This document shows positions 771 to 37,274 of a stretch of 37,274 bases of DNA, in pieces (position 1 is the stretch's first letter; every line of letters begins with the position of its first letter). The DNA lies in NCBI GenBank assembly GCA_023300235.1, contig JALZWN010000198.1, positions 1 through 37,274 of the forward strand, written 5' to 3'. The stretch is from Mariniblastus sp. GTDB taxonomy: Bacteria; Planctomycetota; Planctomycetia; Pirellulales; Pirellulaceae. A model generated the notes under the pieces. It worked only from the letters and a program-made list of their open reading frames with translations. It did not search any database and was not told the DNA's origin. The translations under genes and the position numbers were made by a program.

Positions 771-1414
771 CGTTTCTCCGGTGGTTTTGAAAAGTGTTGC
801 ACGCCTTCGAAGACCAGCAGCGGCAACAGCCAGCTGCCCCAAGCCAAAAAGCGGTACGTGTTGAGTGACTCGATGCCAGTGACATAGAAAACGCCAGCCC
901 CCAATCGTAGCAAGATTGGCGAGCACAGCAAAATTCCAGATCGCCAGGCCCAGCGAGAATGCGACTTAAACTGTTTTTTAAACGCGAAAACCGCGGTCAA
1001 GCCAACCGAACCCATCGTGCACACCGCCAACGTGGCAAATCCCCATCCCGCGATCGGCCCGGCTTGAGATCGAGCCGCCATGATGATTCCTCCCGGGCAC
1101 ACCGCCAAGATCGTCAGTAACGCCAGTAAACGACCGCTCCACCGATGCAATGCTTTGAATCGTTTGGATCTCCCGGTGGCTAATAAAATAACCACCAACA
1201 CGATCGCAAACGGGCCGGAGATGATGTGTGTGTAAAAGCCAATCGCGTACCAACCAGCAAACGTCGGTCGACGACCAGCCAAGAAAAACGATTGATCAAA
1301 ATCCGGCGGAAAGTAAAACCGATACTCCATCACAATCAACGCCAGCACGCGCAAGATCAGCACGATCGCCAGTGCGATTAGTATTTGGTTCAGTCGTGAT
1401 TCTCGTTTGTTCAA
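740..1414 (-). CDS. DUF2306 family membrane protein
   Basis: A 224-residue protein with about six predicted transmembrane helices: residues near 10-30, 53-80, 92-112, 122-145, 158-178 and 188-208. The segments GWYAIGFYTHIISGP and ALHRWSGRLLALLT, with conserved His and Arg at membrane edges, fit the DUF2306 family of uncharacterised bacterial membrane proteins. No enzymatic motif is visible. It sits between a PqiB-like gene (85-base gap upstream) and the DUF1559 gene, whose start it overlaps, so the three form a likely minus-strand transcription unit. Family assignment is from remembered sequence character, not a search. Function is unknown. Confidence 0.72.
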   Translation of the reverse strand: MNKRESRLNQILIALAIVLILRVLALIVMEYRFYFPPDFDQSFFLAGRRPTFAGWYAIGFYTHIISGPFAIVLVVILLATGRSKRFKALHRWSGRLLALLTILAVCPGGIIMAARSQAGPIAGWGFATLAVCTMGSVGLTAVFAFKKQFKSHSRWAWRSGILLCSPILLRLGAGVFYVTGIESLNTYRFLAWGSWLLPLLVFEGVQHFSKPPEKRWQSKRSERD

Positions 1415-1499
1415 AAAGCAGCGCCTCGTTTGAGAAACGTTTTCTGGCTGCCGCTAGACGAGCCTGGACGCCGACGTCTTCCGATTGATCGTAAAACGA

Positions 1500-2936
1500 T
1501 CAATCAACCAACTCAATTTTCGCCGAGCGTTCTTCAACGATCAGAAATCCGATCAAGCTCCCATCGGCCTTCGCCACCACTGGAGCACCATGCCACACGT
1601 CGCGGTCGCCATCAAAATCCCGCAACTGCCAGTTTTCGTCGATCTGATTGGCAGTGAGTGGCAAATGCAAAAACGTGCCGGCGGCGCCATCGCCTTCATA
1701 CCGAACCGCCAAGCATTCTTCGGCTTGATCGGGGCGTCGGATTTCTTGCTTGGTGAACGGAGCCTTCGTTGGCGATCGCCCCGCAGGTAGCGGCAACGTT
1801 CCGATTCGTTTGCCTTCGGTTGTCACTAACTTTGACAAGTCCAGTTCCGTTCCATCGGCGACCAATGAAACTTTAAAGCTGCCGTCGATCGCCTGTTCTG
1901 GTTTTGTCACGGCATCGTTTGGCAATCGCAATGCATGTCCGTTGCTGCCGGTAACGTGCGTCGCGACACACGCAGCTGACTTTTCTGCCGTGCCAAAGAA
2001 CCGACCTTTTTGTTTCCATTGAACTTGCACCGCCACAGCCGCTCGCAACAAACCAGCTTTCGCGACGTCCACTTTTTTGGCTTGTTCAAACCACTCGGAT
2101 TCCGGAGTGCTCACGATCGAAAACAATTGCCCCGGCCGAACCGGCTGGCCACCGTTTTCGATCGTTAGCATGGCTACGCCGCCCGACGCCACGGTCTCGA
2201 AAGACTCGATGTCAAATTGCAATCCGCTGCCCCAACGTAAATCAAAATCGATTCCGCTGTTGGACCAGAATTTTGATTTGGAAGTCACCAAGTGCGTGTA
2301 CGGATCAAAGATCCTCAGCCGGCTATCAACCGTTTGTCCGTTCTCGGCCAGTTCGACCGCCAGCACTCGGCCGATGATTACTCCGCGATGGCTAACTGGC
2401 GAACCGGAGTTCAAACCCAATCGGTGTTCGCCTTGCAGAATGATTTCAATCCCCGGCGAGTTCGTTGCATCGGGCGGCATTCGGGCCATTCCGGCAAAGC
2501 GAACTTTACCGGGAGCGTCAACGTTGCCCGGTAGCACGCCGATGTATTTGTGACCGACGGCCGTTTCCAATCCCGAGATTCCGCCGAGGTTAAGTTCGGG
2601 GCGGACGATCCAAAATTGGCTGCCGTCGCGGGCCAGCGGTTCAGCAAACGGCTTCAACGCAACCGTCACGTCGACACTCTCTAAATCGTCTTTCAGTTCA
2701 ACCGTCTCGACCGTGCCGACGTCGATCCCGCGATATCGCAGGGTGTCTTCGACTCGCAGTCCATGGCCATCGGGGAAGTGAATCTCAATGTGGACGCCTT
2801 CTTCGGGCATCGACCACCACACCAGCCCGACTGCGGCGATCAGGCAGACTAGCGTTAGCAACCACATGTAAGACCCGGCTAGAGTTCCTAGGAAACCAGG
2901 TTTGATCGTTTGGACTTTGGCGGTGGGCGCGGTCAT
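1500..2936 (-). CDS. PqiB/YebT-like MCE-domain membrane protein with extra C-terminal region
   Basis: A 478-residue protein with a short cytoplasmic start, one transmembrane helix (about residues 22-43) and two MCE domains, roughly 48-140 and 155-270. Characteristic stretches are DTLRYRGIDVGTVETVEL and GSPVSHRGVIIGRVLAVEL, the repeated MCE signature with G(x)VxxV. PqiB and YebT proteins carry tandem MCE domains and build periplasm-spanning tubes or barriers for phospholipid transport between membranes. No PqiA-like integral membrane partner is adjacent: thyA lies upstream and DUF2306 downstream. The last 190 residues do not look like an MCE domain or the PqiB coiled-coil and end in GAPVVAKADGSLIGF, a phrase resembling the end of a trypsin-like fold, without a visible catalytic triad. 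There is no clear ribosome binding site. The MCE call is firm, substrate and partner unknown. Confidence 0.85.
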   Translation of the reverse strand: MTAPTAKVQTIKPGFLGTLAGSYMWLLTLVCLIAAVGLVWWSMPEEGVHIEIHFPDGHGLRVEDTLRYRGIDVGTVETVELKDDLESVDVTVALKPFAEPLARDGSQFWIVRPELNLGGISGLETAVGHKYIGVLPGNVDAPGKVRFAGMARMPPDATNSPGIEIILQGEHRLGLNSGSPVSHRGVIIGRVLAVELAENGQTVDSRLRIFDPYTHLVTSKSKFWSNSGIDFDLRWGSGLQFDIESFETVASGGVAMLTIENGGQPVRPGQLFSIVSTPESEWFEQAKKVDVAKAGLLRAAVAVQVQWKQKGRFFGTAEKSAACVATHVTGSNGHALRLPNDAVTKPEQAIDGSFKVSLVADGTELDLSKLVTTEGKRIGTLPLPAGRSPTKAPFTKQEIRRPDQAEECLAVRYEGDGAAGTFLHLPLTANQIDENWQLRDFDGDRDVWHGAPVVAKADGSLIGFLIVEERSAKIELVD

Positions 2937-3026
2937 GGCGTCGAATCTCAGTTGCTAGAAATCTAGTTTTCAGAATCAGAGCATTGGCTACTCCAGCCAA
3001 AGCGGCTCAATATATCAACACTCGTT

Positions 3027-3287
3027 CAGGGCGAATCAGTTTTTGAATTTTGGTTTTATGGTAGCCCGCCGCGTTGGCGAGGAATTGTGGTGATGGGCTT
3101 CTAGCCTGTCATTTGCATGGGAGCAGCGCGTAAGACAGGCTGGAAGCCCATCTCCACAATTTCTTAGGCTTCGCCAAAACATGCTAAATCAACAAACCCG
3201 TCAGTGAGGAACCTGTGTAAACCCTCGCTGACGCGTCGGGTTACCATTTGGTCGGGGCTCTCTAATTTGCAAAATTGATTCGCCCTG
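3027..3287. mobile_element. Palindromic MITE-like element, intact copy A
   Basis: A 261-base non-coding element between thyA and the MCE gene. Its ends are perfect 12-base inverted repeats, CAGGGCGAATCA at 3027-3038 and its complement at 3276-3287. Inside lies ATGGTAGCCCGCCGCGTTGG (from 3058), inverted near the right end around 3222-3250 as CTCGCTGACGCGTCGGGTTA. The core is a large hairpin with arms 3084-3110 and 3134-3160 containing GTGGTGATGGGCTT. It contains no ORF of its own. Related copies lie at 14311-14460, 21151-21257 and 31591-31826. The layout is that of a miniature inverted-repeat transposable element moved by a transposase elsewhere. I see no clear target-site duplication. The ATGGTAGCCCG motif is common in Rhodopirellula-type genomes. 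Confidence 0.8.
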
Positions 3288-3296
3288 CACAAACGC

Positions 3297-4091
3297 TTAC
3301 ACCGCGACCTTGCCTTTGATGTGCGGATGAGCCTGATAGTCTTGCAGTTCAAAGTCTTCGAACTTGAAATCAAAAATCGATTTGGTTTCTGGATTTAGTT
3401 TAAGCTTCGGCAGCGGGTAAGGTTCTCGCGACAGTTGCAGTTTGGCTTGTTCGACGTGATTGGAATACAAATGAGCATCGCCGAGTGTGTGTACGAAGTC
3501 GCCGGGCTTCAGACCGGTCACTTGAGCCATCATCATCGTCAGCGCCGCGTAGGAACCAATGTTAAATGGCACGCCTAAAAACACATCTGCGCTGCGTTGG
3601 TACAACTGGCACGACAGTTCACCGTTGGCCACGTAAAACTGAAAGAATGCATGGCAGGGTGGCAGCTTCATTTTTGGGATCTCGGCCACGTTCCAAGCAC
3701 TCACGATCAACCGTCTCGAGTCCGGGTTCGTTTTGATCTGATCGACGACCTGTTGAATCTGATCCACGGTCTCGCCGTCGGCGCCTTGCCATGACCGCCA
3801 CTGCGAACCGTAGACGGGGCCAAGTTCGCCGTTTTCGTCGGCCCACTCATTCCAGATCCGCACGCCATTGTCTTGCAAGTATCCCACGTTGGTGCTGCCG
3901 CTCAAAAACCAAATCAGTTCGTGAATGATGCTTTTGAAATGCAGCTTTTTGGTGGTGACCATCGGAAATGAATCTCGCAGGTCAAACCGCATTTGATAAC
4001 CAAAGACACTGGAGGTGCCGGTTCCGGTGCGATCGGATTTGACGGTGCCGTGGTCGAGAATGTGCTGGAGTAATTTTAGGTAAGCTTGCAT
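3297..4091 (-). CDS. thyA: Thymidylate synthase
   Basis: A 264-residue protein, the same length as E. coli ThyA, and the active-site numbering matches. It converts dUMP to dTMP using 5,10-methylenetetrahydrofolate, in the cytoplasm. The catalytic Cys146 is in [12 protein letters not shown]. Phosphate-binding Arg21, Arg126/Arg127 and Arg166, Asp169 and Asn177 (VPFNIGSYA) are present, as are the C-terminal [10 protein letters not shown] residues that close over the substrate. The ATG at 4091 is favoured by the family length; no strong Shine-Dalgarno is seen. No dihydrofolate reductase gene is adjacent. It is transcribed divergently from the kinase-like gene, and the palindromic element A lies 10 bases beyond its stop. 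Confidence 0.99.
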
Positions 4092-4212
4092 GTCATTTTT
4101 TTACACCGCCAGCCACGTTTAACCAAGTAGACGCGAGCGATTGCAAGCCAATTTTGAAAAGGTTGTCGGGCTGGCGTAAAGAATTCCAGCAGACTTGCCA
4201 CAAACAAGCTCA

Positions 4213-5097
4213 ATGAATGCCGGCAACTCAATTAAGATGTCCGCTATGGTTCCTGTCTCGCTCATTCGGATATTGCAATTACCTCTTCGAGGGTTTGCCA
4301 ATTGCATTCGGCGAGTGCACGTAAATCGGATCTCGTTCGAGCAATCCGATGCTGGCAAAGCACTCGTGCGAAAGCGACGCAGTTGGTTTGCTGGGGCGTT
4401 GATATTTCTTGGCAACGTCGCCTTTCGATTTCGCCAAGTGCCCTTAAGAGTGCTTTGGCGCGGCGAGTGGCTTGCCTGGGAGAGCGCGGTCAAACTGGCT
4501 TTGCGAAACGAATCGATTCCAGCTGGGACGGATTTGCTTTGTGAAGTTATTCCAGGGCAGCCGCTGAGTCAGCGTCTTAGCGATCGTGAAATGGCATCAG
4601 CTGATCGACTCGAGCTGCTAGGAACGGCAGTTCGGGCTTTAAGAGATTTGCACCAAGCAACCATTCCGCTGCCGGGCTTTGAGCAACCGATTGCATTAAG
4701 TCACGGGGACGCAGCGGTTTCGAATGTGCTGTATTGTGATCAAACGAAACGAGCCGAGTGGTTCGACTTTGATCTTCGGCATGATTTGCGAGCGGATGCA
4801 GACCAGAGGCATGCGGATGACTTGCGATCGTTGATCTTTTCGGCGAGTCTTTTTTGTCCTGAAAGCGAGCTGGAATCGCTCGTGTTGATGATTAAACGCG
4901 AATATGGGAGCGAGCATGTTTGGGTGGTGTTGCAACAGCAGGTCGGCAGTCGTTGGTTTTGGTTTGATTTATTCCATCTGTCGCAGACTCGCCGCTTACG
5001 GGCAGAGTCTCCGGTCGCCAGGCACAGGCTATCCGCCACGGACAAGGCAATAGTTCGTTTGATTGAAAATTCGTTTGCTTGGAATTCGTTAGATTAA
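4213..5097 (+). CDS. Protein-kinase-fold phosphotransferase (APH/KdkA-like)
   Basis: About 294 residues from the ATG at 4213; a TTG at 4195 would add six, and ATGs at 4237 and 4246 are also possible. The catalytic loop is LSHGDAAVSNVLY (HGD at residues 164-166, Asn171) and the metal-binding loop is WFDFDLRHD (Asp at 185 and 187), the small-molecule kinase pattern HGDxxxxN..DFD. A Glu in LAWESAVKL (about residue 90) fits the helix-C glutamate and a Lys near 50-55 the ATP lysine. Asp-Asp at 202-203 also fits. These features point to the aminoglycoside phosphotransferase/lipopolysaccharide kinase superfamily. The substrate cannot be told; sugar or lipid A/Kdo phosphorylation is possible. It diverges from thyA, and a small membrane protein follows 261 bases downstream. 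Fold fairly secure, substrate unknown. Confidence 0.7.
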   Translation: MNAGNSIKMSAMVPVSLIRILQLPLRGFANCIRRVHVNRISFEQSDAGKALVRKRRSWFAGALIFLGNVAFRFRQVPLRVLWRGEWLAWESAVKLALRNESIPAGTDLLCEVIPGQPLSQRLSDREMASADRLELLGTAVRALRDLHQATIPLPGFEQPIALSHGDAAVSNVLYCDQTKRAEWFDFDLRHDLRADADQRHADDLRSLIFSASLFCPESELESLVLMIKREYGSEHVWVVLQQQVGSRWFWFDLFHLSQTRRLRAESPVARHRLSATDKAIVRLIENSFAWNSLD

Positions 5098-5358
5098 AAA
5101 ACGAACTGACCGCCGAAGCGGCTCAACGATTCGCAGCCGTGTTGCCCCCGAGCGACGTCCAGCTTGCGACACCTTGCCCGGCATCTTCATCGCCCGCCCC
5201 TACAACCGGAACAATCCATGGCCGATGCAGGCACCAAATTGCTTTCTGTTGGCGAGAGTCTCAAGTCTGCCATCGCGTTGGTTCGATACCAGAATCAGCA
5301 AAAGTTATTGGCGAGCTATTCAGTTTGCCATAAACGCCTCCTTCCAATGGCATAATCA

Positions 5359-5709
5359 ATGCGACGTACTTCTACGATGACCTTGGGTTTCGTGCTGATT
5401 TTTCTCGGCATCCAATTCGCGTTGGTCGATTCGTATCAACTCACGCCGCGAATTGCGAACTTTTTGTCAGAGCAAGGGCGAGTGTCTCAAGTCGCTCCAC
5501 CGCAACTGGTTCAAAATCCGAATCAGCGTCCTTATTCGCCTTATAGCCAAGCTGGCTATCAGGTTCCGCAGCAGGCTCCCGTCGTGATCGCGAGCGTTCC
5601 TCCGGGGCAACGCACCATTACCCCACCTCGTTGGATCTGCTGGCCGTTGCTGTTCTGTGGCACGGTTGTGCTGTTACACGGTTTGGGCAAACCTCGGCAC
5701 CACGGCTAA
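5359..5709 (+). CDS. Small membrane protein of unknown function
   Basis: A 116-residue protein with a hydrophobic N-terminal segment (about residues 7-24, LGFVLIFLGIQFALV), a Pro/Gln-rich middle (about 45-85, PNQRPYSPYSQAGYQVPQ) and a second hydrophobic segment (92-109, WICWPLLFCGTVVLLHGL). This suggests two membrane helices joined by a flexible loop. I do not recognise a family. A six-base dyad, TGCCAT at 5326-5331 and ATGGCA at 5347-5352, sits directly upstream of the ATG. The strong hairpin terminator at 5847-5922 is the first plausible end of its transcript. No Shine-Dalgarno is clear. Real coding is supported by its length and the consistent membrane-loop-membrane layout. Confidence 0.6.
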   Translation: MRRTSTMTLGFVLIFLGIQFALVDSYQLTPRIANFLSEQGRVSQVAPPQLVQNPNQRPYSPYSQAGYQVPQQAPVVIASVPPGQRTITPPRWICWPLLFCGTVVLLHGLGKPRHHG

Positions 5710-5846
5710 AGTTTTTGTCTTTAGTCGGCAAAACGTTATTGATTTCGAAATTTAGACGAATCACTTTAAGCTAAAACACATGAATCGCCGATTGGCGATA
5801 TTAACCATATACCGTGTGCTCTTTTCGGAAGTCAGAGCATGCGATT

Positions 5847-5922
5847 AAAACACTAGTAGAAGCGTTTGAGAACGGGAGCCTGGTCGCTCTTTCAATGACG
5901 CTTTCGGCTAGTGTTTTTTTTT
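5847..5922 (+). terminator. Long hairpin with nine-T tail (terminator, possibly end of a small RNA)
   Basis: The arms AAAACACTAG (5847-5856) and CTAGTGTTTT (5908-5917) pair perfectly. Inside, AAGCGT (5860-5865) pairs with ACGCTT (5898-5903), TTGA (5866-5869) with TCAA (5892-5895), and GAGC with GCTC near the apex. A run of nine Ts (5914-5922) follows the stem on the plus strand. It ends transcription of the upstream small membrane gene, or of an independent short RNA. A second perfect hairpin, ATCGCC-GATT-GGCGAT, lies just upstream at 5784-5799. The 5710-6146 gap holds no convincing gene. Confidence 0.78.
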
Positions 5923-6061
5923 GGAAAAAACAAGAAGGTTCGGCCGCCGGGATGGAAACTAGGCCACCAGCCAGCGATTGGAAGGCGACCTTGCGTCCCA
6001 GACCGGCAAAAATCCCTCCCCCTGCCCTTTGTAACCGCGGTCAACTAGTCGAACAAAGCGG

Positions 6062-6090
6062 TTGGAAGTAGCTCAGGGTCTGTTTAGAAT
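6062..6090 (+). promoter_or_regulatory. Sigma-70-type promoter of the STAS/anti-sigma pair
   Basis: TTGGAA at 6062-6067 and TAGAAT at 6085-6090 are separated by exactly 17 bases, matching four and five of six consensus positions. Transcription would start near 6097, about 50 bases before the STAS start codon. The -35 box follows a nested pair of inverted repeats: CAGACC (5999-6004) with GGTCTG (6077-6082), and AACCGC (6033-6038) with GCGGTT (6058-6063). The inner right arm overlaps the -35 box and the outer right arm lies in the spacer. Confidence 0.6.
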
Positions 6091-6146
6091 AGAGTCAGAC
6101 AATCGTCGCATCACCATTTCGGGTTTCCTGCTGAGCCAACCGTATT

Positions 6147-6530
6147 ATGCCTGACCTTCAATGCATCGAGATCGACTCAATCGACGACGTGTCGGTGGTT
6201 AAGCTCAAGGACGCGAAAGTCATGGCGCCGGCGCAAGTGGAAACTTTGGGCGATGAATTGCTGTCACTGGTTGAAAGCAACTCAGGCGGAGACGGACCGC
6301 AAGCCAGTGCCAACGTGTTGATTAACTTTGAGAACGTTCGCTTCTTTTCCAGTGGAGCGATCAACAAACTGATTGTTTTGGAAAAACGAGTTCGAGCCAA
6401 CGGTGGCCAGATTAGGCTCAGCAACATGCAGCCAGAAGTTCGCGACTTGTTTAGCTACACTAATCTCGATCAAATGTTTGACATCCTTAGTACCCAAGCC
6501 GAAGCGATTGAATCTTTCGAAAACAATTGA
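6147..6530 (+). CDS. STAS-domain anti-anti-sigma factor (RsbV/SpoIIAA-like)
   Basis: A 127-residue single-domain protein. The segment VLINFENVRFFSSGAINKLI (about residues 57-76) is the STAS signature around the regulatory serine; Ser69 is in the position of the serine phosphorylated in SpoIIAA/RsbV. In the known partner-switching scheme the unphosphorylated STAS protein binds the anti-sigma kinase and frees a sigma factor. The next gene, 103 bases downstream on the same strand, encodes that kinase, which supports a functional pair. No sigma factor or PP2C phosphatase gene is adjacent, so the target is encoded elsewhere or the module controls something other than sigma. The ATG at 6147 gives the normal family length. 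Confidence 0.9.
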   Translation: MPDLQCIEIDSIDDVSVVKLKDAKVMAPAQVETLGDELLSLVESNSGGDGPQASANVLINFENVRFFSSGAINKLIVLEKRVRANGGQIRLSNMQPEVRDLFSYTNLDQMFDILSTQAEAIESFENN

Positions 6531-6633
6531 TCTGAAGGAAGTCGCCAAACCAAAGCAAAACGTTTTGGATTGGCTTGCTTTCTTTGAATTGAGTTCCCCA
6601 GCCGAGTAACCAGACTGCACCAGCGAATATTGC

Positions 6634-7050
6634 ATGCCTTCGAAGTGGAAATACGACCAACAAATCGCCTCGGATCCGGACCTCTGCGCACCCATTATCG
6701 CTCAGCTGCTGGATCAACTGGCGATCTTTGGCTGGTCGACCAAGGACTCGTTCGCCATCCACATGGCGATGGAAGAAGTGATCTTGAACGCGATTCGTCA
6801 CGGCAACGAATGTCGTAAGGGCACGTTCGTCCATGTTACGATGGAGCTAGATGACTTACAATTTAGCAGCACGGTCAGCGACGAAGGAACGGGCTTCGAT
6901 CCGGCCGAGGTTCCGGACCCGACCGACAACGCAAATCTAGACAAGTGTAGCGGTCGCGGTGTCATGCTGATCAAACACTTTGTCGATGAAGTCACGTACA
7001 ACGCCTGCGGCAATTCGGTTACATTAAGCAAAACGAAACAGACCTCGTGA
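6634..7050 (+). CDS. RsbW/SpoIIAB-type anti-sigma serine kinase
   Basis: A 138-residue protein of the GHKL ATPase fold (HATPase_c_2). The N box is EEVILNAIRHGN (residues 47-58), the G1 box SDEGTGFDP (82-90) and the G2 box CSGRGVMLIKHF (105-116). These bind ATP-Mg; the family sequesters a sigma factor and phosphorylates its STAS antagonist. The STAS gene lies immediately upstream and probably shares its promoter at 6062-6090. No sigma gene is adjacent. The ATG at 6634 fits the domain start. The family is secure; whether the target is a sigma factor is inferred. Confidence 0.9.
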   Translation: MPSKWKYDQQIASDPDLCAPIIAQLLDQLAIFGWSTKDSFAIHMAMEEVILNAIRHGNECRKGTFVHVTMELDDLQFSSTVSDEGTGFDPAEVPDPTDNANLDKCSGRGVMLIKHFVDEVTYNACGNSVTLSKTKQTS

Positions 7051-7124
7051 CAACCGGTTTCGGTGCCCCATAATCGCAACACTCTCTAACCCTCGCCGCA
7101 ACACGGCCAATAGCAGCCTATCCT

Positions 7125-10100
7125 ATGAGCGATTCGATTGAAGCCGACGACAATGGTTTGGAGAAACTTCGCGAAGGCGGGCTTAGGTCGGCCAGCTTTC
7201 AAGGCTTGTTGTGGACGCAGTGGCTGACCAGCATCAACGACAATGTGTTTCGCTGGTTCGTCGTCGGGGTGGGGAAAGCTCAGCTGTTGCCCGAGTATTC
7301 GAGTGCGATCCTGGCGGTGGGTGCGATTTTGTTTACGCTGCCATACATTTTGTTTGCACCGATCGCTGGCTGGCTGGCTGATCGCTACTGCAAACGTCAC
7401 GTAATCATTGGCTGCAAGATCGCTGAAATCGTGATCATGGCTCTGGGCGTGCTGGCGATCGCCTGCTTGGGCAAACCCAACCCCTCGCAAGGTGGCTCGT
7501 TGATGGATGTGCTACACAGCGTCGATCCGACATTGTATTTGCTGGCGTTTGCGGTGTTTTTAATGGGAGCCCAAAGCGCACTCTTTGCGCCAGCGAAAGT
7601 CGGCTCGCTACCGGAGTTGTTGTCCGAAAAAAACATCACTTCCGGTAACGCGATTTTTAACGTCGCAACATTAACGGCCACCATCATCGGCATGCTACTC
7701 GGTGGCTCGCTGGCGGATTGGACCGACCGCGGGCAATCGAATCTTGGTTGGGCAGCCGGTGTATTACTCGGACTCGCGGTCATTGGCACCTTGCTGAGTT
7801 TTTTAGTGCGGACCTTGCCCGCCGCAAACGCCGCGGCAAGGTTCCCAATCAACTTGCCCCGGATGCTATTCAAAGACATCTTTCAACTGTTCCAATTTCG
7901 ATTCCTATTTCGTGTCGCGTTAGGTGTGTCATTTTTTTGGGCCATCGCGGCGCTGATCCAATCGAACATCGATATTTTCAGCACCGAAAACGGTGGACTG
8001 GGCGAAGCTGACCGAAACCCGTACCTGCTGGCCGTCGTCGTGGGCATCGCGTTGGGAAGCGTTTTGGCGGGGCTGATCTCTCGTGGCCGAATCGAACTGG
8101 GCCTAGTGCCCTTTGGGGCGATCGGCATCGCGTTGTTCAGCTTGCTGCTGGCTTTTTCACCCAGTGACTTCATCGGTGATACGATCTGGAGTGGGCCATC
8201 TTTGTACGTTTGTTTTTTGCTAACCGGACTGGGGATGTCTGCCGGCCTGTTCGACACGCCGTTGACTTCGTACCTGCAATTCAATAGCCCAATCGACAAA
8301 CGTGGCACCTTGCTGTCTGCCACCAACTGCATGGCTTTCACAGGAATCCTTGTGACGATGGGACTGCTGTTGTTGTTTACCAAACCAACGTTTGTCGGAT
8401 CGGTCAGCAACCTCTCGAATGCTGTCACGACGGCAAGTTTGAGTGAACCGCAAACCGCGTCGCTGGCGACCGTAACGTCTGAGTTTCTAAAAACCCCAAT
8501 CGATTCAGAAACCATCGGCATCGCCCCAATCGTTGAAAAACTCGATAAAGAGCTTCAACCAGCGGCGATCACTGAACTTGTGACCGCCGACTTGCGGCGG
8601 CGAAAAGGTGCGGGAGATTTTTACGATTACTGGGATGAGTTCAAGCTTCCAGCGGAGCAACGAGAAACGCTCTCCGACGCGGCAGCCGTACAGCAGAATT
8701 CTATAGAACGAACGATCGGGCGACAGCTTCGCAAAGTCATCGCGCAGGCTGGCAACCTACCGCTGATGACCGCCCGCCAGATCTTTTTGTTCATCGGTCT
8801 GCTGGCCATTCCCGTCGTGTTCTACGCAGCCTACATGCTCGGCCGAAAATGCCTTCGATTAATGGTCTGGGCACTGTTAGCGACACTTTACAAAATCAAA
8901 GTCAACGGCGCAGAAAAAATCCCCTCCGAAGGCAGCGCCGTCGTCGTCGCCAACCACTCATCGTGGATCGACGGAGCGATCCTGTTGGTGCTTGTTCCTC
9001 GCATTCCGCGCACGATCGCTTGGGCAGGGAATTTCAGCGGAAAATTTCTCGAGCGATTCGCAAGCTTTTGTGGCGTGATCCTGATGGGCTCCGGCCCCAA
9101 ATCAATCCGGCGCAGCCTTAACGAAGCGCGAGGCGTTTTGAATAACGGCGAAGTGCTGGGTATCTTTCCCGAAGGCGGGATCTCACGGGATTGCCAAGTG
9201 CGAACGTTCAAGCCGGGTTTGAAAATGATCCTCAAAAAGGTCGAACCGACCTCGATCTATCCCGTTTACTTTGATGAAATTTGGGGCAGCAACTTTAGCT
9301 ACGTCGGCGGCAAAGCGTTTCGTCGTTGGCCATTCCCACTGCGTCGCCCGCTTTCGGTTCATATCGGTGACCCGATCCCCAGCGACAGTAGCATGTTTGA
9401 AGTCCGACAAGCAGTTCAAGAACTAGGAGCAAAGACCATGGAAAATCCGGCTGGAAAATTCGTTGCCCCCGTAGCAGCGTTCGTATCGTCATGTAAAGCA
9501 GCTAAGTTTCGCTCCAAAATCGGCGACTCAACGCAACAAGAAGAAACCGGCGGCAAGTTGCTCACCCGCGCACTGGTGCTGCAGCGCTTGCTCCGCCGCG
9601 AAGTTTTAGACGCTAGTGAAAGCCACGTTGGCGTGCTGATTCCGCCAACGGTCGGCGGGGCGATCGTTAACCTTGGCCTTTCTTTAGATAAACGAATCGC
9701 TGTCAACCTGAACTACTCGTTGTCCAATGAGCTGATCAACCATTGTGTCAAAGACTCTGGCATCAAAACAATTTTGACAACGCGAAAGGTCGCCGACAAA
9801 TTGAACTTTGAATTCGAATGCAAAGTTTTTTACTTGGACGACTTAAAAGAAAAAGTCACCGGCATGGACAAGGCGGTCTCGGCAATGCATGCCTTTGCCA
9901 CACCAGCGTTCCTGCTCAAGCGCTTGCTGGGCCTCAACCGCATCAAAGCCGACGACGTACTAACGGTCGTTTTCACCTCGGGCTCAACCGGCGTCCCCAA
10001 AGGCGTGATGCTGACCCAACAAAACGTGATGACCAACGTTCAAGGCATTTGCAAGGTCGCGTCCCTGCACGCGAAAGACACGATCATCGGCATCCTGCCA

Positions 10101-11060
10101 TTCTTCCATTCGATGGGTTACACCGTCACGCTTTGGGTGCCAATGGTATCTGCGATTCGCGGCGTTTATCACTTTAATCCGTTAGACGCAAAAGTGGTCG
10201 GCAAGCTGGCGGAAAAATTCTCAGCCACGACACTGGTCGCAACGCCTACATTCTTACGGTCGTACATGCGGCGCTGCACCCCAGAACAGTTTGCGGCGTT
10301 GGAGATGGTCATCGCCGGTGCAGAGCGTTTACCGACCGAGTTGTGCGAAGAGTTCGAAAAGAAATTCGGTGTCCGGCCGGTTGAAGGCTACGGCACCACC
10401 GAACTTGCTCCTGTCGCCGCGGTCAACATTCCCTACGCCCGACAGGCGAAAAAGGATTTCCAGATCGAAACCAAAGAAGGCACCGTCGGACGTCCTATGC
10501 CGAACTGTTCCGCTCGGGTTACCGACCTAGACACCGGCGAGCAACTCGGCCCCAACCAATCCGGCATGCTCTGGATTTCAGGGCCTAACGTGATGAAGGG
10601 GTATTTGAATCGCCCGGACGCAACCGCAGAAGTCTTGGTGGATGGCTGGTACAAAACCGGCGATGTGGCGATCATCGACGATGATGGTTTCATTCAAATC
10701 ACCGGCCGCATGAGTCGCTTTTCCAAGATCGGCGGCGAGATGGTGCCACACTTGAAAATCGAAGAAGTCCTCTGTCGTGCACTCGACTGCACCCCAGATG
10801 ACGATTCAGATGATCACTTGCTGGTCGCAGTCACCGCGGTGCCTCATCCTAAAAAAGGCGAACGCTTGGTCGTGTTGTACACCGTCAAAAATGCGACTGC
10901 CGAAGGCATGATTGCCACGCTCAAAGAAGGCGGTTTGCCGAACATCTTCATCCCGTCTGCCGACAGTTTCTTCTTGGTCGACAAGCTGCCAATGTTAGGG
11001 ACCGGCAAACTGGACCTTCGCGGGATCAAAGACAAAGCCTTGGAGTTGTGCGGCGAATAA
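7125..11060 (+). CDS. aas: LplT-PlsC-Aas trifunctional lysophospholipid transporter/acyltransferase/acyl-ACP synthetase
   Basis: A 1311-residue fusion. Residues 25-580 form a major-facilitator transporter like LplT, which flips lysophospholipids inward (WTQWLTSINDNVFRWFVVGV, then ADRYCKRHVIIG). Residues 590-770 form a PlsC-like 1-acyltransferase with the HX4D motif NHSSWID (His611, Asp616) and FPEGGISR. Residues 790-1311 form an AMP-forming acyl-ACP synthetase: FTSGSTGVPKG at about 950-960, GYGTTE, WYKTGD, and the C-terminal catalytic lysine in GTGKLDL (Lys1295). In E. coli LplT and Aas are separate proteins that together repair lysophosphatidylethanolamine at the inner membrane; their fusion is a known arrangement. 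A soluble insert of about 120 residues (about 425-545) interrupts the transporter's last helices. The next gene starts 13 bases downstream. Confidence 0.92.
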   Translation: MSDSIEADDNGLEKLREGGLRSASFQGLLWTQWLTSINDNVFRWFVVGVGKAQLLPEYSSAILAVGAILFTLPYILFAPIAGWLADRYCKRHVIIGCKIAEIVIMALGVLAIACLGKPNPSQGGSLMDVLHSVDPTLYLLAFAVFLMGAQSALFAPAKVGSLPELLSEKNITSGNAIFNVATLTATIIGMLLGGSLADWTDRGQSNLGWAAGVLLGLAVIGTLLSFLVRTLPAANAAARFPINLPRMLFKDIFQLFQFRFLFRVALGVSFFWAIAALIQSNIDIFSTENGGLGEADRNPYLLAVVVGIALGSVLAGLISRGRIELGLVPFGAIGIALFSLLLAFSPSDFIGDTIWSGPSLYVCFLLTGLGMSAGLFDTPLTSYLQFNSPIDKRGTLLSATNCMAFTGILVTMGLLLLFTKPTFVGSVSNLSNAVTTASLSEPQTASLATVTSEFLKTPIDSETIGIAPIVEKLDKELQPAAITELVTADLRRRKGAGDFYDYWDEFKLPAEQRETLSDAAAVQQNSIERTIGRQLRKVIAQAGNLPLMTARQIFLFIGLLAIPVVFYAAYMLGRKCLRLMVWALLATLYKIKVNGAEKIPSEGSAVVVANHSSWIDGAILLVLVPRIPRTIAWAGNFSGKFLERFASFCGVILMGSGPKSIRRSLNEARGVLNNGEVLGIFPEGGISRDCQVRTFKPGLKMILKKVEPTSIYPVYFDEIWGSNFSYVGGKAFRRWPFPLRRPLSVHIGDPIPSDSSMFEVRQAVQELGAKTMENPAGKFVAPVAAFVSSCKAAKFRSKIGDSTQQEETGGKLLTRALVLQRLLRREVLDASESHVGVLIPPTVGGAIVNLGLSLDKRIAVNLNYSLSNELINHCVKDSGIKTILTTRKVADKLNFEFECKVFYLDDLKEKVTGMDKAVSAMHAFATPAFLLKRLLGLNRIKADDVLTVVFTSGSTGVPKGVMLTQQNVMTNVQGICKVASLHAKDTIIGILPFFHSMGYTVTLWVPMVSAIRGVYHFNPLDAKVVGKLAEKFSATTLVATPTFLRSYMRRCTPEQFAALEMVIAGAERLPTELCEEFEKKFGVRPVEGYGTTELAPVAAVNIPYARQAKKDFQIETKEGTVGRPMPNCSARVTDLDTGEQLGPNQSGMLWISGPNVMKGYLNRPDATAEVLVDGWYKTGDVAIIDDDGFIQITGRMSRFSKIGGEMVPHLKIEEVLCRALDCTPDDDSDDHLLVAVTAVPHPKKGERLVVLYTVKNATAEGMIATLKEGGLPNIFIPSADSFFLVDKLPMLGTGKLDLRGIKDKALELCGE

Positions 11061-16255: not shown

Positions 16256-16281
16256 AACGACCAACCCACTTGGAGACTCAA

Positions 16282-16947
16282 ATGTACACACAAATTCTAC
16301 GCCTAGCGATCATTGCTGCGGCACTCATCTTTGCAACTCCTGCGTTTGCTCAAGACTGCGGTTGCAGTGGCGGTGGCGGGTACGGCGGCGGGCAACTTAG
16401 CTCTGACGTCGGGCAACCTTTCTTCGGATTCTTCACACCAGATAATTGTGGTCGCGGTATCAATAATGATCAAGCCGAAGGCCTGTGGGCTGGGTATTGC
16501 AACGAATCATGTGGCTACTACGGTGGCGGAAGTTCTGTCAGCGGCGGCGGAATGCTAAGTGGTGGTTGTGGCGGAGGCCGTGGTGGTTTCGGATGCAATA
16601 GCGGTTCATTTGGCTACCCGGCTGGCTGCGGTGGCGGTTGCGGTGGCGGTGGTGGTTGCAAGCTAAAGAGTCGTCATGGCGGTGGTGGCTGTAAGCTTAA
16701 GGGTCGTCATGGCGGTGGCGGTTGCGGTGGTGGCGGCGGTTGCAAGCTATTCGGCGGTTGCAAAAAGTTTGGCAACAGTGCTGAGCAGTGTGGAACCAGT
16801 GGTGCTTACTTTGAAGAAGCAGTCGGCTACGAGTACGGCACTGCCGGAATGGAAAGCTGCGTTTCTTGTAACTCTTGTGGATCATTCGATTCAATGGTTG
16901 GCCAGCCGATGACTGTTATTGATGGCGGCATGGGAGCTGGCTACTAA
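16282..16947 (+). CDS. Secreted glycine/cysteine-rich repeat protein
   Basis: A 221-residue protein starting at the ATG at 16282, fixed by GGAG at 16272-16275 six bases upstream. A classical signal peptide (about residues 1-23, ending ATPAFAQ) predicts export. The mature chain is roughly one-third glycine with about 18 cysteines in CxC, GGC and GGGGC settings. A central region repeats the unit GGGGCKLKxRH (from about residue 121) and varies to GGGGCKLFGG. The C-terminal part is less repetitive (EEAVGYEYGTAGMESCVSC). I do not recognise a family. Possibilities are a disulfide-linked structural or cell-envelope protein, or a metal-binding protein; the KLK/RH basic units could contact acidic polymers. 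It has its own leader and terminator (17042-17073), so it is a single-gene unit. Confidence 0.82.
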   Translation: MYTQILRLAIIAAALIFATPAFAQDCGCSGGGGYGGGQLSSDVGQPFFGFFTPDNCGRGINNDQAEGLWAGYCNESCGYYGGGSSVSGGGMLSGGCGGGRGGFGCNSGSFGYPAGCGGGCGGGGGCKLKSRHGGGGCKLKGRHGGGGCGGGGGCKLFGGCKKFGNSAEQCGTSGAYFEEAVGYEYGTAGMESCVSCNSCGSFDSMVGQPMTVIDGGMGAGY

Positions 16948-32589: not shown

Positions 32590-34002
32590 TTAAGAATCTC
32601 CAGTTTCGACGGGGTAGCCATTGTCTTTCCAAGCAACGATACCGCCATCAACGTTGACGACGTCCTTGATTCCAGCTGCTTGAGCGATGCTGCACGCGAC
32701 GGCTGATCGAGCGCCCGTGCGACACAGGAAAACGATCGGCTTGTCGTTGGGCAGGCTGCCGATATCTTGCATCATGCTGCCCAAAAAGGAGTAGGCTGCC
32801 TGAGCGACGTGTCCTTCGTTCCATTCCGCACGCCTGCGGACATCAACCAAGTAGACATCGCCGGTTTTGATTTGGCGGCGCAGTTCCGAGGAGGTTTTGT
32901 ATTGATAGGATTCTGTCGCTAGGCCGGCAGCTGCAATTTCGTCTGCGTCAAAGTAGCCCGCGATGTTGTCCGCTCCAATTTCACGAAACACGCGAATTGA
33001 TTCTGTCAGCGTTGTAGAATCGGCAATCAGGTAAAATGACCGTTCGTAATCGACAATCCAACCGCCGTCGCGGGCGATGTATTTGGTGGGAATGTTGATT
33101 GTGCCGGCTGCATGTTGTTGAGCATATTTCGGTGCCGGGCTCACGTCCCAGACCATGTCGCTTTCAATCGCTTTCAGTAGATCAGCAACATCCATTTTTT
33201 TGAGTTCGTCATCTGCGCCTAAGACTTTTGGCCCATGCTTATTGACGTGTTTCATCGTCGCGAAGTATTCGGGGGCTTCGGGCTGGTCTGCCAAGATGTA
33301 CTGGACGAATTCGTCTTCCGTCTTGAACTGAAGTGCCTCGTTGAACATTTTTTCATAGCCGACGGTACTGGATGGGATCGCCCCCAAACCTTTTCCGCAA
33401 GCACTGCCGGCGCCGTGTGATGGCCAAACTTGAAGGTAATCAGGAAGCTCGCGGAACTTTTGAATTGAACGATATAGATCTCGTGCCCCCGGTTCAGTGG
33501 TTCCGGTTTGTCCCGCAACCTCTTCCAACAAGTCGGGGCGTCCGGTGGAGCCAACGAAGATGAAATCGCCGGTGAACAATCCCATTGGCCTGTCCGCTCC
33601 TCCGCCAACATCCGTTAAAAGAAACGAAAGGCTTTCGGGCGTGTGGCCTGGCGTGTGCAACGTCTCTATTTTGATATTGCCGACATGGAACTCGTCACCA
33701 TCTTTAAGCAGTTGATGGTTGTATTCCTTTACGAACGTGTACTTCCAGTCGGCCGGCCCTTCGTCTGAGACGTACAGTTTTGATCCAATTCTTTCGGCCA
33801 GTTCACGTCCACCAGAAACGTAATCTGCATGGATGTGCGTCTCGACCGAGCCGACGATTTTCATTTTCTCTTGTTTGGCAACGTCCAGGTACGATTGGAT
33901 GTTGCGACTGGGGTCCACGACAATCGCCTCCCCCATTTTTTGGCAGCCAACTATGTACGAGGCGTGGGCGAGTTCTTGGTCGTAAAAATATTTCAGTAAC
34001 AT
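32590..34002 (-). CDS. CstB-like persulfide dioxygenase with tandem rhodanese domains
   Basis: A 470-residue protein. Residues 1-235 form a metallo-beta-lactamase domain with the single-iron persulfide dioxygenase ligands: His56 and His58 (THIHADYVSG), His120 (TPGHTPES) and Asp146 (FTGDFIFV), plus GRPDL and His196. A first rhodanese-like domain (about 265-350) lacks the catalytic cysteine; a second (about 370-468) has it, Cys427 in FLCRTGARSA. The order, and cysteines at 20 and 202, match Staphylococcus aureus CstB, which oxidises low-molecular-weight persulfides to sulfite and forms thiosulfate. It lies 77 bases after the cysteine desulfurase fusion on the same strand. A cytoplasmic sulfide/persulfide detoxification role is well supported. 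Confidence 0.9.
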   Translation of the reverse strand: MLLKYFYDQELAHASYIVGCQKMGEAIVVDPSRNIQSYLDVAKQEKMKIVGSVETHIHADYVSGGRELAERIGSKLYVSDEGPADWKYTFVKEYNHQLLKDGDEFHVGNIKIETLHTPGHTPESLSFLLTDVGGGADRPMGLFTGDFIFVGSTGRPDLLEEVAGQTGTTEPGARDLYRSIQKFRELPDYLQVWPSHGAGSACGKGLGAIPSSTVGYEKMFNEALQFKTEDEFVQYILADQPEAPEYFATMKHVNKHGPKVLGADDELKKMDVADLLKAIESDMVWDVSPAPKYAQQHAAGTINIPTKYIARDGGWIVDYERSFYLIADSTTLTESIRVFREIGADNIAGYFDADEIAAAGLATESYQYKTSSELRRQIKTGDVYLVDVRRRAEWNEGHVAQAAYSFLGSMMQDIGSLPNDKPIVFLCRTGARSAVACSIAQAAGIKDVVNVDGGIVAWKDNGYPVETGDS

Positions 34003-34079: not shown

Positions 34080-36473
34080 CTAGATCATGTATTCTACTTC
34101 TGGCTGGGGCAGTTCGGTTGAAGACGAAGTATTTAACGCCAGTCCGCCTGCCAAATGCTGCACTTGATCGAGTCCTAATCGGCGAGCGATTTCGGCGGCT
34201 CGCCGGCTACGCCGTCCGCTGCGACAAACAAAAACAATTCGCTGATCCTTTAAGGAGCCGCTAAGCAACTCAGGCAAAAAGCTACTTAGCTGGGTCAATG
34301 GGACATTGCGAGGCAGTGAATTAAAGCCAAGTTCAGCCCATTGCTGTTCAAAAGCGAATTCGTGTGGTTCGCGAACGTCGACTACCAGCGAATTGGGGTC
34401 GGCAACCAGCATGTCGATATCGACCGACTCTTTGTGTTGACTTCCGGGAGTTTCTTTTTTGATTAAACCGCACACTAATTCGCAGTCCGAGCCCGCCACG
34501 ATCTGAGCGTCCAGTTGCGGCTTGGCTGCCTCAAATTCAGAATACGGCATGGGGTTTTTTGGGTCCACGATGCTTCGGAAAAACGAGTTCCCAGCCAGTT
34601 CGGTTTCCAGCGTCGTCGCGAACTCGATGTTGTAGTCGTGAGTCGGGCAAATGACCGTCTTGGGGCCGATTAGCAGAGGGATTTTTCGAAGCGAGTCAAA
34701 CATCTTCTCGATCGAACTGCAAGGGAAGTCCGTGCGTCCAACGCCGTCCATTAAAACCGTGTCGCCGGTGAATGCGAAACGGACATTCTCAGGCAACAGT
34801 CGACCGTCATTCAGACTGCCAACCAAGTACGCCACGCTGATGAGTGTGTGGCCGGGTAGCTCGGTTTTCGCCAAAATCAAATCGTCTGAGAAACGGATCC
34901 ACGGGGCCTTCGACCCGTCGCCCAATTCGCAAACTCCTGCTTCGGAGTTGGGCCAACCTAGCAGGTCGTCCGTGCCGGCCGACTTGTCTTGGAATTCACT
35001 CAAGGCGCCAAGTAGCTCTCGACGGCAAGAGTCATGGTCGACGTGCGCGTGAGTATCCAGAACCGCCACTATTTTGCTGCGTTGACAGCGGACGAGCGTT
35101 TCGACTCGTTCGGCCAATTCCTCGAATGGGTCGATGACCACGCACCGGCGAGATTTTGAATCCATCAGCAACCAAGTGCAGTTGGGACCGCTTTTGAGTT
35201 GAATCAATCCATCTAAATTTCGCCCGGAGATACTTTCGGCGTTGTTGGCAACCACTAAACACGAATCATGCGTCACCTCGCCAACGCGATTGATGCGCTC
35301 GCACGCAGCATCGATTTCCTCTTGAGTCGCAATCGGCGAGAAAGACATTCGAATCACGCCCATCGATCGCCAAGGCTCTAGGCCCATTGCATCCAGCACG
35401 TAAGAAGATGTCGCTCCTGCACCACATGCAGAACCCGAACTGACGCGGATTCCGGCCGCGTCGAACAGGTCAGTCAGTTCACGACTGGGAAAACCTTTGA
35501 TGGCGAAACTGATTGTAGTGGGGACGGTCTTGGCAAGCGGAGCATTGAGCTCGAGCGATGGAAAAGCTTGTCGTAAGGCCGTAAGTATTTGGTCACGGTA
35601 TTGATTGAGCTTTTCAGTCGAAGCGAAAGACCGAGTAGGAGAATCTGCCAAGATTTCCAGAACCGCTGCGATCGCCGCAACGCCCGGTAGGTTTTCTGTG
35701 CCCGCACGAGCACCGGCTTCCTGGCCACCGCCAGCCATCAGCGGCACCAGTGGAGTGGATTCGCGAACGTACAGCAAGCCGATTCCCTTAGGGGCAAAAA
35801 TCTTATGGCCGCTGAAGGACGCGAAGTCGATGGTGGTGCTGGCTAGGTTAAGTTCGAACTTGCCAAGCGCTTGCACGCAATCGACCAACCAAACACACTC
35901 GGGGTTCGCCGCGCGAATCACCTTTTCAATGCGAGCCAAATCGGTAATGACTCCGGTTTCATTGTTAACCGCCATCGTGCAAATTAAGCCTGCGCGTTTC
36001 GCATGCTGTTCTAGATACGCAATGTCTAGTGCTCCTTCGCGATCGACGGGGATTGCCAGTACTTCGGCATTGAGCCCCAGCATTTCATTCCAATGTTTGA
36101 TCGCTTGGGGCACCGCCTTGTGTTCAGTCGCCCCATACATCAGCACAGGTGTTTCTGTGCTCGACAGCTGTTCAGCGTTGAGGGATTTTCGTTTCTTGCG
36201 CAGCTCACACAAAGCAGAAAACACACCCATCTGAATTGCTTCGGTTGCCCCGCTAGTAAAAACCATTTGCCCAGTGGAAGAGCCAAGCACGCAACGGGCT
36301 AGTTCACGGGCGGATTCAAGAATATGCCGCGCACGCAATCCAGAAATGTGCGAACTACTTGGGTTGCCATAGAGATCGTTCATGGCATCACTGGCAGCCG
36401 TGGCAGCTTCAGGTAGCACCCGCGTGGTGGCGTTGGAGTCGAGGTAAATTTCAGCAGGGTAGTTTTTTTGCAT
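34080..36473 (-). CDS. Cysteine desulfurase - persulfide dioxygenase-like - rhodanese triple fusion
   Basis: A 797-residue protein with three complete-looking enzymes. Residues 8-400: class V PLP cysteine desulfurase (NifS/IscS), PLP lysine Lys224 in FSGHKIFAPKG, catalytic Cys350 in SSGSACGAGATSSYVL, His118 in GATEHKA. Residues 420-670: metallo-beta-lactamase domain with His475, His477, Asp479, His480 (THAHVDHD), His542 (LPGHT), Asp571 (FTGDTVLMDGVGRTDF) and His612 (CPTHDY); GRTDF and HDY are typical of ETHE1-type persulfide dioxygenases. Residues 685-785: rhodanese, Cys750 in VFVCRSGRRSRRAA. Inferred flow: cysteine sulfur becomes Cys350 persulfide, passes to a thiol carrier, is oxidised to sulfite, and the rhodanese exchanges sulfur with sulfite or thiosulfate. 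It lies between an Lrp-type regulator and the CstB-like gene. Confidence 0.93.
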   Translation of the reverse strand: MQKNYPAEIYLDSNATTRVLPEAATAASDAMNDLYGNPSSSHISGLRARHILESARELARCVLGSSTGQMVFTSGATEAIQMGVFSALCELRKKRKSLNAEQLSSTETPVLMYGATEHKAVPQAIKHWNEMLGLNAEVLAIPVDREGALDIAYLEQHAKRAGLICTMAVNNETGVITDLARIEKVIRAANPECVWLVDCVQALGKFELNLASTTIDFASFSGHKIFAPKGIGLLYVRESTPLVPLMAGGGQEAGARAGTENLPGVAAIAAVLEILADSPTRSFASTEKLNQYRDQILTALRQAFPSLELNAPLAKTVPTTISFAIKGFPSRELTDLFDAAGIRVSSGSACGAGATSSYVLDAMGLEPWRSMGVIRMSFSPIATQEEIDAACERINRVGEVTHDSCLVVANNAESISGRNLDGLIQLKSGPNCTWLLMDSKSRRCVVIDPFEELAERVETLVRCQRSKIVAVLDTHAHVDHDSCRRELLGALSEFQDKSAGTDDLLGWPNSEAGVCELGDGSKAPWIRFSDDLILAKTELPGHTLISVAYLVGSLNDGRLLPENVRFAFTGDTVLMDGVGRTDFPCSSIEKMFDSLRKIPLLIGPKTVICPTHDYNIEFATTLETELAGNSFFRSIVDPKNPMPYSEFEAAKPQLDAQIVAGSDCELVCGLIKKETPGSQHKESVDIDMLVADPNSLVVDVREPHEFAFEQQWAELGFNSLPRNVPLTQLSSFLPELLSGSLKDQRIVFVCRSGRRSRRAAEIARRLGLDQVQHLAGGLALNTSSSTELPQPEVEYMI

Positions 36474-36607: not shown

Positions 36608-37072
36608 TCACTCTAAGGGGATTTGTGTTGTATCGATAATGTTCTCCATGACAAAGCTTGACGAGATGTCGGTGAAAGGCACTTGGCGATACAGTCGCTG
36701 GTAGAATTGATCATAACTTTTAATATCCTTCACCATGACTTTGAGCATGTAATCTACATCGCCAGTCATGCGGTGTGCGCCGACGATCTCCGGCGCGGAC
36801 TCGACTGCAACTTTGAACTTTTCCAGCCACTTCGGGCCGTGTTGGTTGGTTTTGACCAACACAATGACTGACAAGCCAATTCCGACTGCCTCTGGGTCGA
36901 TCAGGGCAACCTTGCCTCTAATGACACCGGATTCTTCCATTTGCTTGACTCTTCGCCAACAAGCGTTGCGAGAAAGATTGACTCGCTCTGAAAGTACATC
37001 CATGCTGAGGGTTGCGTCCTTTTGCAGTTCTACAAGGATGCTTCGATCGATATTGTCCAGGTTTGTGCTCAT
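36608..37072 (-). CDS. Lrp/AsnC family transcriptional regulator
   Basis: A 154-residue protein with an N-terminal helix-turn-helix (residues 5-55, NIDRSILVELQKDATLSMDV then LSERVNLSRNACWRRVKQME) and a C-terminal RAM ligand-binding domain (about 70-145, with GAHRMTGDVDYMLKVMVKD). The family senses amino acids, forms octamers and often regulates itself and its neighbours. The CWRRVKQMEESGVIRGKVAL segment resembles the Lrp/DecR subgroup; DecR of E. coli responds to cysteine and controls a cysteine desulfidase. The adjacent cysteine desulfurase fusion, 134 bases downstream on the same strand, makes cysteine a reasonable guess as ligand. A -10 box lies so close to the ATG that the mRNA may be leaderless. 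Confidence 0.93.
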   Translation of the reverse strand: MSTNLDNIDRSILVELQKDATLSMDVLSERVNLSRNACWRRVKQMEESGVIRGKVALIDPEAVGIGLSVIVLVKTNQHGPKWLEKFKVAVESAPEIVGAHRMTGDVDYMLKVMVKDIKSYDQFYQRLYRQVPFTDISSSFVMENIIDTTQIPLE

Positions 37073-37078
37073 GTTGGG

Positions 37079-37108
37079 ATTATATCCCGGGTTCGGTTCG
37101 TTTGGCAG
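37079..37108 (-). promoter_or_regulatory. Promoter of the Lrp-type gene with a dyad over the -10 box
   Basis: On the minus strand TATAAT occupies 37084-37079, six bases before the ATG at 37072, and CTGCCA (37108-37103) lies 18 bases upstream as a moderate -35. The -10 box sits inside the dyad GGGAT-TAT-ATCCC (37076-37088), a possible autoregulatory site. The expected start of transcription is at or next to the A of the ATG, implying a leaderless mRNA. Confidence 0.55.
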
Positions 37109-37274
37109 TTTAAATTGTCTGCTTTTCGGGTAAAAGGCAAGTGGTTGTCTTTGGCCGCTGCGTTGTCGAATCGATGGGGAGACGGCTTTTCTACAATTTA
37201 TCCGGATTGGAGGCGTGTTCTGCCGTCGTAATCTAGGGTTTTAATATCACTTCAAAACTAGGGGGGGCAGTTCA

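Follow-up and report, generated by a model that had tools for sequence, protein, structure and literature searches.

Cysteine desulfurases (CDs) yield alanine and a cysteine persulfide, persulfide dioxygenases (PDOs) use O2 to convert thiol-bound sulfane sulfur into sulfite, and rhodaneses move sulfane sulfur. In human mitochondria, NFS1, ETHE1, and TST represent the three enzyme types united in the protein analyzed here, but as separate proteins, and NFS1 serves Fe–S assembly rather than sulfide oxidation. Excess cysteine is toxic, and the well-known bacterial routes for its removal release sulfide. Among the closest described systems is BpPRF from Burkholderia/Paraburkholderia phytofirmans (PDB 5VE3–5VE5), in which an MBL PDO is followed by one rhodanese. 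BpPRF is collinear with residues 431–778 of the present fusion protein, which keeps both the iron-site motif and the rhodanese CRxGxRS motif. However, BpPRF has no cysteine desulfurase, whereas the fusion carries a 400-residue CD in front and adds conserved cysteines at positions 405, 463, and 609. A cysteine desulfurase joined to a rhodanese is found in CD-Rhd of Pseudorhodoferax sp. Leaf274, which is bifunctional in vitro and passes sulfur from cysteine to thiols (PMC8931425). Unlike the fusion, CD-Rhd is described as CD plus rhodanese only and, lacking a PDO, offers no path to sulfite. CstB of Staphylococcus aureus, a type III PDO, shares the PDO and rhodanese chemistry, and a CstB-like protein is encoded downstream of the fusion. 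In contrast to the fusion, CstB has a pseudorhodanese between its two domains and no desulfurase, and type III enzymes replace the third His of the type I/II iron-site motif (PMC6060420), which the fusion keeps. The CyuR–CyuPA system of Escherichia coli links a cysteine-sensing regulator to a cysteine-degrading enzyme, a link that is also predicted for the fusion; CyuA, however, is an oxygen-sensitive desulfidase releasing sulfide (PMC9040844), whereas the fusion is predicted to be an O2-using, sulfite-forming alternative.

Both halves of the fusion are therefore already known, as PRF (PDO–rhodanese) and as CD–rhodanese (PMC8931425), and the three-part chain is apparently undescribed in the literature searched. 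The initial annotation had known of no characterized CD–dioxygenase–rhodanese protein. This holds for the mostly open-access literature covered, in which a CD–rhodanese lacking a PDO is the characterized case, and a paper elsewhere is possible. No NCBIfam model is specific to the CD–PDO–rhodanese protein.

The fusion gene lies near one end of a 37,274-nucleotide stretch of DNA from Mariniblastus sp., referred to as the window (Table 1). Its open reading frame (ORF) is intact and starts with an ATG at 36473; the annotated interval was thus borne out, on the minus strand, and the plus strand of the same interval is full of stops and non-coding. Aminotran_5 (residues 9–389, 194 bits), Lactamase_B (432–599, 32 bits), and Rhodanese (690–778, 35 bits) all exceed their Pfam gathering scores, in agreement with the three-domain identity proposed from the letters. 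These three domains also rule out a chance ORF. The active-site residues named initially (Lys224/Cys350, His475/His477/His542/Asp571/His612, and Cys750) occupy the positions given, and these eight, together with Asp479 and His480, are identical in all 80 full-length homologs. Since the CD–MBL–rhodanese order is read in a single frame across 80 independent genomes, an assembly or frameshift artefact was rejected; the same order in a single-contig relative of the same genus also argues against it. Judged from its sequence, the protein is a fusion of a group I CD, a PDO-type MBL domain, and a rhodanese.

Table 1. Positions of the fusion gene, its predicted functional sites, and neighboring features (window coordinates unless a locus is named).
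Feature	Position	Strand	Basis
CD–PDO–rhodanese fusion gene, 797 aa	34080..36473	-	ORF, Pfam, homologs, conserved residues
CD domain, Aminotran_5, residues 9–389, group I / IscS–NifS type	35307..36449	-	194 bits; structure matches
Lys224 codon, PLP lysine, SGHK motif	35802..35804	-	Invariant in 80 homologs and in IscS
Cys350 codon, catalytic Cys, SSGSAC of long mobile loop	35424..35426	-	Invariant
Cys405 codon, invariant Cys in CD–PDO linker	35259..35261	-	Candidate sulfur relay, inferred
MBL domain, persulfide dioxygenase type, residues ~422–670	34464..35210	-	Pfam; sequence and structure matches
His475 to Asp479 codons, predicted iron-site motif THAHVDHDS	35037..35051	-	Conserved; alignment
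His542 codon, predicted iron ligand	34848..34850	-	Conserved; alignment
Asp571 codon, predicted iron ligand	34761..34763	-	Conserved; alignment
Rhodanese domain, residues 690–778	34140..34406	-	Pfam; sequence and structure matches
Cys750 codon, rhodanese catalytic Cys, CRSGRRS	34224..34226	-	Invariant in 80 homologs
Lrp/AsnC regulator, CyuR/DecR type, 134 bp upstream of fusion	36608..37072	-	Identity comparisons
CstB-like MBL–pseudorhodanese–rhodanese protein, 470 aa, 77 bp downstream of fusion	32590..34002	-	Structure–sequence matches
Possible control region upstream of regulator, sigma-70-like site 37108–37079	37079..37207	-	Weak
CyuR-type regulators beside fusion in relatives	L026 5332–5790; L065 2583–3062; L078 924–1403	divergent	

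The CD domain belongs to group I (IscS/NifS-like), as indicated by the lysine of SGHK and the cysteine of SSGSAC, which sits on a long loop about as long as that of IscS. In the structural model, residues 350–352 of this loop have pLDDT values below 50, as expected for a mobile loop, and the CD model matches the Nfs1, IscS, and NifS structures with Z-scores of about 41. The fusion nevertheless stays far under the NCBIfam equivalog cut-offs for NifS (263 versus 530.75 bits), IscS (187 versus 643.2), and SufS (115 versus 475.1). When placed in a tree alongside the IscS and SufS encoded in their genomes, the CDs of the fusions group as a single clade (support 100/99) with a long stem, separate from both families, and IscS is the nearest among the desulfurases tested. 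The fusion is further marked by extra cysteines, of which Cys165, Cys405, Cys609, and Cys668 occur in 81/81 copies and Cys391, Cys432, and Cys463 in 80/81. The IscS proteins compared lack equivalents of Cys165, Cys391, and Cys405, and the positions of Cys463 and Cys609 are not cysteine in the aligned BpPRF, MxPDO, and ETHE1. Because the conserved extra cysteines range from the linker to a position beside His612, a sulfur relay along the chain is possible.

For the C-terminal half, BpPRF is the best PDB match by sequence, followed by ETHE1-type proteins from Arabidopsis, Myxococcus, and human. A structural model of the C-terminal half (pLDDT 82) gave 12 leading matches with Z-scores of 19.7–21.4, all of them known PDOs or similar MBL proteins (4EFZ and 3TP9 are without assignment); glyoxalase II comes next (Z ≤18.4), and then others. 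The persulfide dioxygenase-like identity suggested for the MBL domain is thus upheld both by its best sequence match and by the ranking of PDO-type structures ahead of any glyoxalase II. His475, His542, and Asp571 are invariant and align with the motifs of ETHE1, BpPRF, and MxPDO as a 2-His-1-Asp site of predicted Fe ligands. The criteria for the type I motif and for the glutathione (GSH) pocket Tyr and Lys were taken from PMC6060420. THAHVDHDS follows the type I motif T-H-x-H-A-D-H-x-S/T with Val in place of Ala, and the window protein contains the second-shell histidines, Arg580 and Asp582 (GRTDF), Tyr614 (HDY), and Lys651, the type I Lys of the GSH pocket. Arg580, Tyr614, and Lys651 are invariant in the homolog alignment, and an equivalent of Arg190 is apparently absent from the fusion. 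The invariant Cys668–Gly669 pair resembles the Cys–Gly of BpPRF, although HMMER places the BpPRF cysteine four residues earlier, at Cys664. ETHE1 Cys247 corresponds to AcPDO Cys224, for which Cys664 or Cys668 is the candidate equivalent in the fusion, depending on the alignment. As in a PRF, the predicted MBL PDO is followed by one rhodanese with an active-site cysteine, Cys750 in an invariant CRSGxRS motif. A PRF, however, consists of these two domains without a further enzymatic domain, whereas a complete CD domain precedes them in 81/81 copies.

In another reading, the MBL domain would be no dioxygenase but, for example, a zinc thioesterase or a glyoxalase, and the protein would act solely as a cysteine-driven sulfurtransferase. 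The low Lactamase_B score (32 bits) fits this reading, as does GloB as the best NCBIfam MBL match, at 62 bits far under the cut-off of 200.8. Furthermore, most gammaproteobacterial copies replace the second-shell Asp of GRTDF (Asp582 in the window protein) with Asn, giving GRTNF, and mutation of this Asp harmed AcPDO (PMC6060420). Nevertheless, PDO-type chains head the structural matches, GRTDF, the equivalents of the GSH-binding Tyr and Lys, and the predicted iron ligands are kept, and the neighboring genes described below point to sulfite. We regard a non-dioxygenase function as very improbable.

The homolog scan, based on one genome per species, yielded at least 80 loci, and each of the 80 listed is a single ORF spanning CD, MBL, and rhodanese. 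The initial annotation had proposed a search of planctomycete proteomes for the same Aminotran_5–Lactamase_B–Rhodanese order; at least 80 further species carry it, beyond the planctomycetes too. Among the matches listed, the carriers belong to four phyla, including Planctomycetota, Verrucomicrobiota, and Pseudomonadota, plus one Oligoflexia genome, which rules out a planctomycete-only arrangement. The Pseudomonadota carriers listed are Shewanella, Colwellia, Pseudoalteromonas, Paraglaciecola, Psychrobium-like bacteria, and one betaproteobacterium, with the first three genera supplying most copies among the matches listed. In even samples of classes and phyla, the fusion was detected in 1/392, 1/369, and 1/388 genomes, each time in the center genome itself. 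Within the family of the window's organism, it is present in 13 of 241 genomes, and 12 of these 13 belong to the organism's own genus. Hence, the fusion is rare and patchy, and it is kept whole where present. The distances of the CD, MBL, and rhodanese domains correlate with r values of 0.91–0.95, indicating that the three travel as one unit.

In the window, a regulator gene, the fusion, and a CstB-like gene follow one another on the same strand. Over its full length, the regulator shares 48% identity with E. coli DecR/CyuR, 37% with Lrp, and 28% with AsnC, and it is the sole DecR match of the genome. In E. coli, CyuR senses cysteine and activates its degradation (PMC9040844, PMC11408624). The gap between the regulator and the fusion contains no good match to the CyuR motif. 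Two AAATTGT half-sites, which resemble the E. coli motif (PMC11408624), lie in opposite orientation at 37112 and 37193, no more than 130 bp upstream of the regulator; the window as a whole contains six AAATTGT/ACAATTT words, including these two. The window stops 202 bp upstream of the regulator gene, and this stretch also contains one promoter-like site, but sites of this kind are no commoner than in shuffles. The half-sites and the promoter-like site are a weak lead, suggestive only, to control of the regulator. The CstB-like protein matches 3TP9 and S. aureus 3R2U at full length. Its first rhodanese lacks the catalytic Cys and its second has one (CRTGARS), making it a second persulfide-oxidizing candidate. 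Farther away in the window, an ORF at 7125–11060 (1311 aa) appears by eye to combine an MFS transporter, an acyltransferase, and an AMP-ligase in one chain (Aas/LplT-like), and a 225 aa Cys/Gly-rich repetitive protein, predicted to be secreted, is encoded at 16270–16947.

In relatives, a TauE/SafE sulfite-exporter gene adjoins the fusion in 15/80 loci listed, in four different arrangements. Specifically, it lies downstream and convergent in Verrucomicrobia, upstream in a planctomycete, downstream on the same strand in Colwellia/Paraglaciecola, and divergent in Pseudoalteromonas. Such variety between groups argues for more than one origin of the association. In Streptomyces, a PDO is known to be co-transcribed with TauE (PMC7533328). 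CyuR-type regulators stand divergent from the fusion, at 125–151 bp, in two Psychrobium-type gammaproteobacteria and one betaproteobacterium. In Shewanella and Pseudoalteromonas, TauE and CyuR neighbors are both absent from most loci; the other neighbors of the fusion are diverse, and no further shared family was found among them. Sulfite, one of the two products initially suggested, gains support from the TauE/SafE neighbors. The other product, thiosulfate, would arise if cysteine sulfur were oxidized to sulfite and the rhodanese then added a second persulfide sulfur, a CstB-like output. According to PMC9774590, which cites Shen 2015 on this point, CstB turns two persulfides into thiosulfate; moreover, a CstB-like gene adjoins the fusion, and the rhodanese Cys is invariant. 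However, the nearest relative of known structure of the PDO–rhodanese half is BpPRF rather than CstB, and BpPRF is placed in sulfur assimilation by the title of Motl 2017, as cited in PMC9774590. The adjoining TauE/SafE genes also point to sulfite, though the substrates of the TauE family vary, and we consider a thiosulfate producer quite unlikely.

A different genomic context was observed in nine Mariniblastus-type loci (L004–L012, among the matches listed), where the fusion lies between sufD and the Rieske gene of a suf operon. The order is sufC–sufB–sufD–fusion–Rieske–(SufT-like), as in L005 at 1154–8843. This context, together with the closeness of the fusion CD to IscS among the desulfurases tested, raises the alternative that the CD supplies the SUF machinery (or tRNA/Moco thiolation) with persulfide and that the PDO–rhodanese half is a safety valve burning surplus persulfide. 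In the window's genome, however, sufC–sufB occupy one contig and sufD–Rieske–SufT-like another, with no fusion after sufD; among the loci listed, linkage to isc/suf scaffold genes was found solely in the nine, and carriers outside the Mariniblastus-type group place the fusion elsewhere. A separate SufS above the curated cut-off is encoded in the window's genome and in the two Mariniblastus-type genomes tested, and gammaproteobacterial carriers retain their own IscS. A housekeeping role would also sit poorly with sulfite exporters and cysteine-sensing regulators. Fe–S supply therefore appears unlikely as the main function. The initial view that the protein is no Fe–S supplier stands for the window's organism, given its separate SufS and its suf genes without the fusion, but may fail elsewhere, at the nine suf-operon loci.

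Taking the window and its relatives together, we consider it fairly probable that the fusion is a cysteine-catabolizing sulfur-oxidation enzyme that converts cysteine into alanine and sulfite. This model draws on the CyuR/DecR-type regulator and the CstB-like PDO that flank the fusion and on the TauE/SafE genes in relatives. In the window's organism, the cysteine-catabolism or detoxification role put forward initially is likewise supported by the CyuR-type regulator, the separate SufS, and the suf genes without the fusion. In the first step, the CD, with PLP on Lys224, would take the sulfur of L-cysteine, yielding alanine and a persulfide on Cys350. The persulfide sulfur would then pass to the C-terminal half, onto the rhodanese Cys750 and/or a low-molecular-weight thiol (for example, glutathione); Cys405 and other invariant extra cysteines may assist in this transfer. 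At the predicted non-heme iron site (His475, His542, and Asp571), O2 would oxidize the carried sulfane sulfur to sulfite, which may be exported (TauE/SafE in many carriers), oxidized, or assimilated. The upstream CyuR-type regulator probably induces the fusion and the CstB-like PDO on cysteine, and the CstB-like neighbor would clear persulfide escaping from the fusion. We infer every reaction in this scheme, as well as series action in one chain, the carrier, the sulfite product, channeling, and induction by cysteine. The suf-operon loci, the GRTNF copies, and the Shewanella/Pseudoalteromonas loci without TauE or CyuR count against the cysteine-to-sulfite model. The glutathione synthetase family matches in the window's genome are moderate only, which counts against a clear thiol carrier. 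As a more tentative possibility, the protein could be a self-contained cysteine oxidase, in which Cys405, Cys463, Cys609, and Cys750 relay the Cys350 persulfide directly to the iron site; L-cysteine and O2 would then yield alanine and sulfite within one chain, and neither free glutathione persulfide nor sulfide would be formed. Alongside cysteine dioxygenase and desulfhydration, such an oxidase would offer another aerobic pathway for breaking down cysteine.

If the cysteine-to-sulfite model is correct, the fusion would provide an aerobic alternative to E. coli CyuA, turning cysteine into alanine and exportable sulfite. One planctomycete group carries it within the suf operon, which prompts the question of whether persulfide supply and disposal are coupled there. 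The fusion occurs in the culturable marine genera Shewanella, Colwellia, and Pseudoalteromonas, and it offers a physically linked system for how a protein-bound persulfide reaches the iron site of a dioxygenase.
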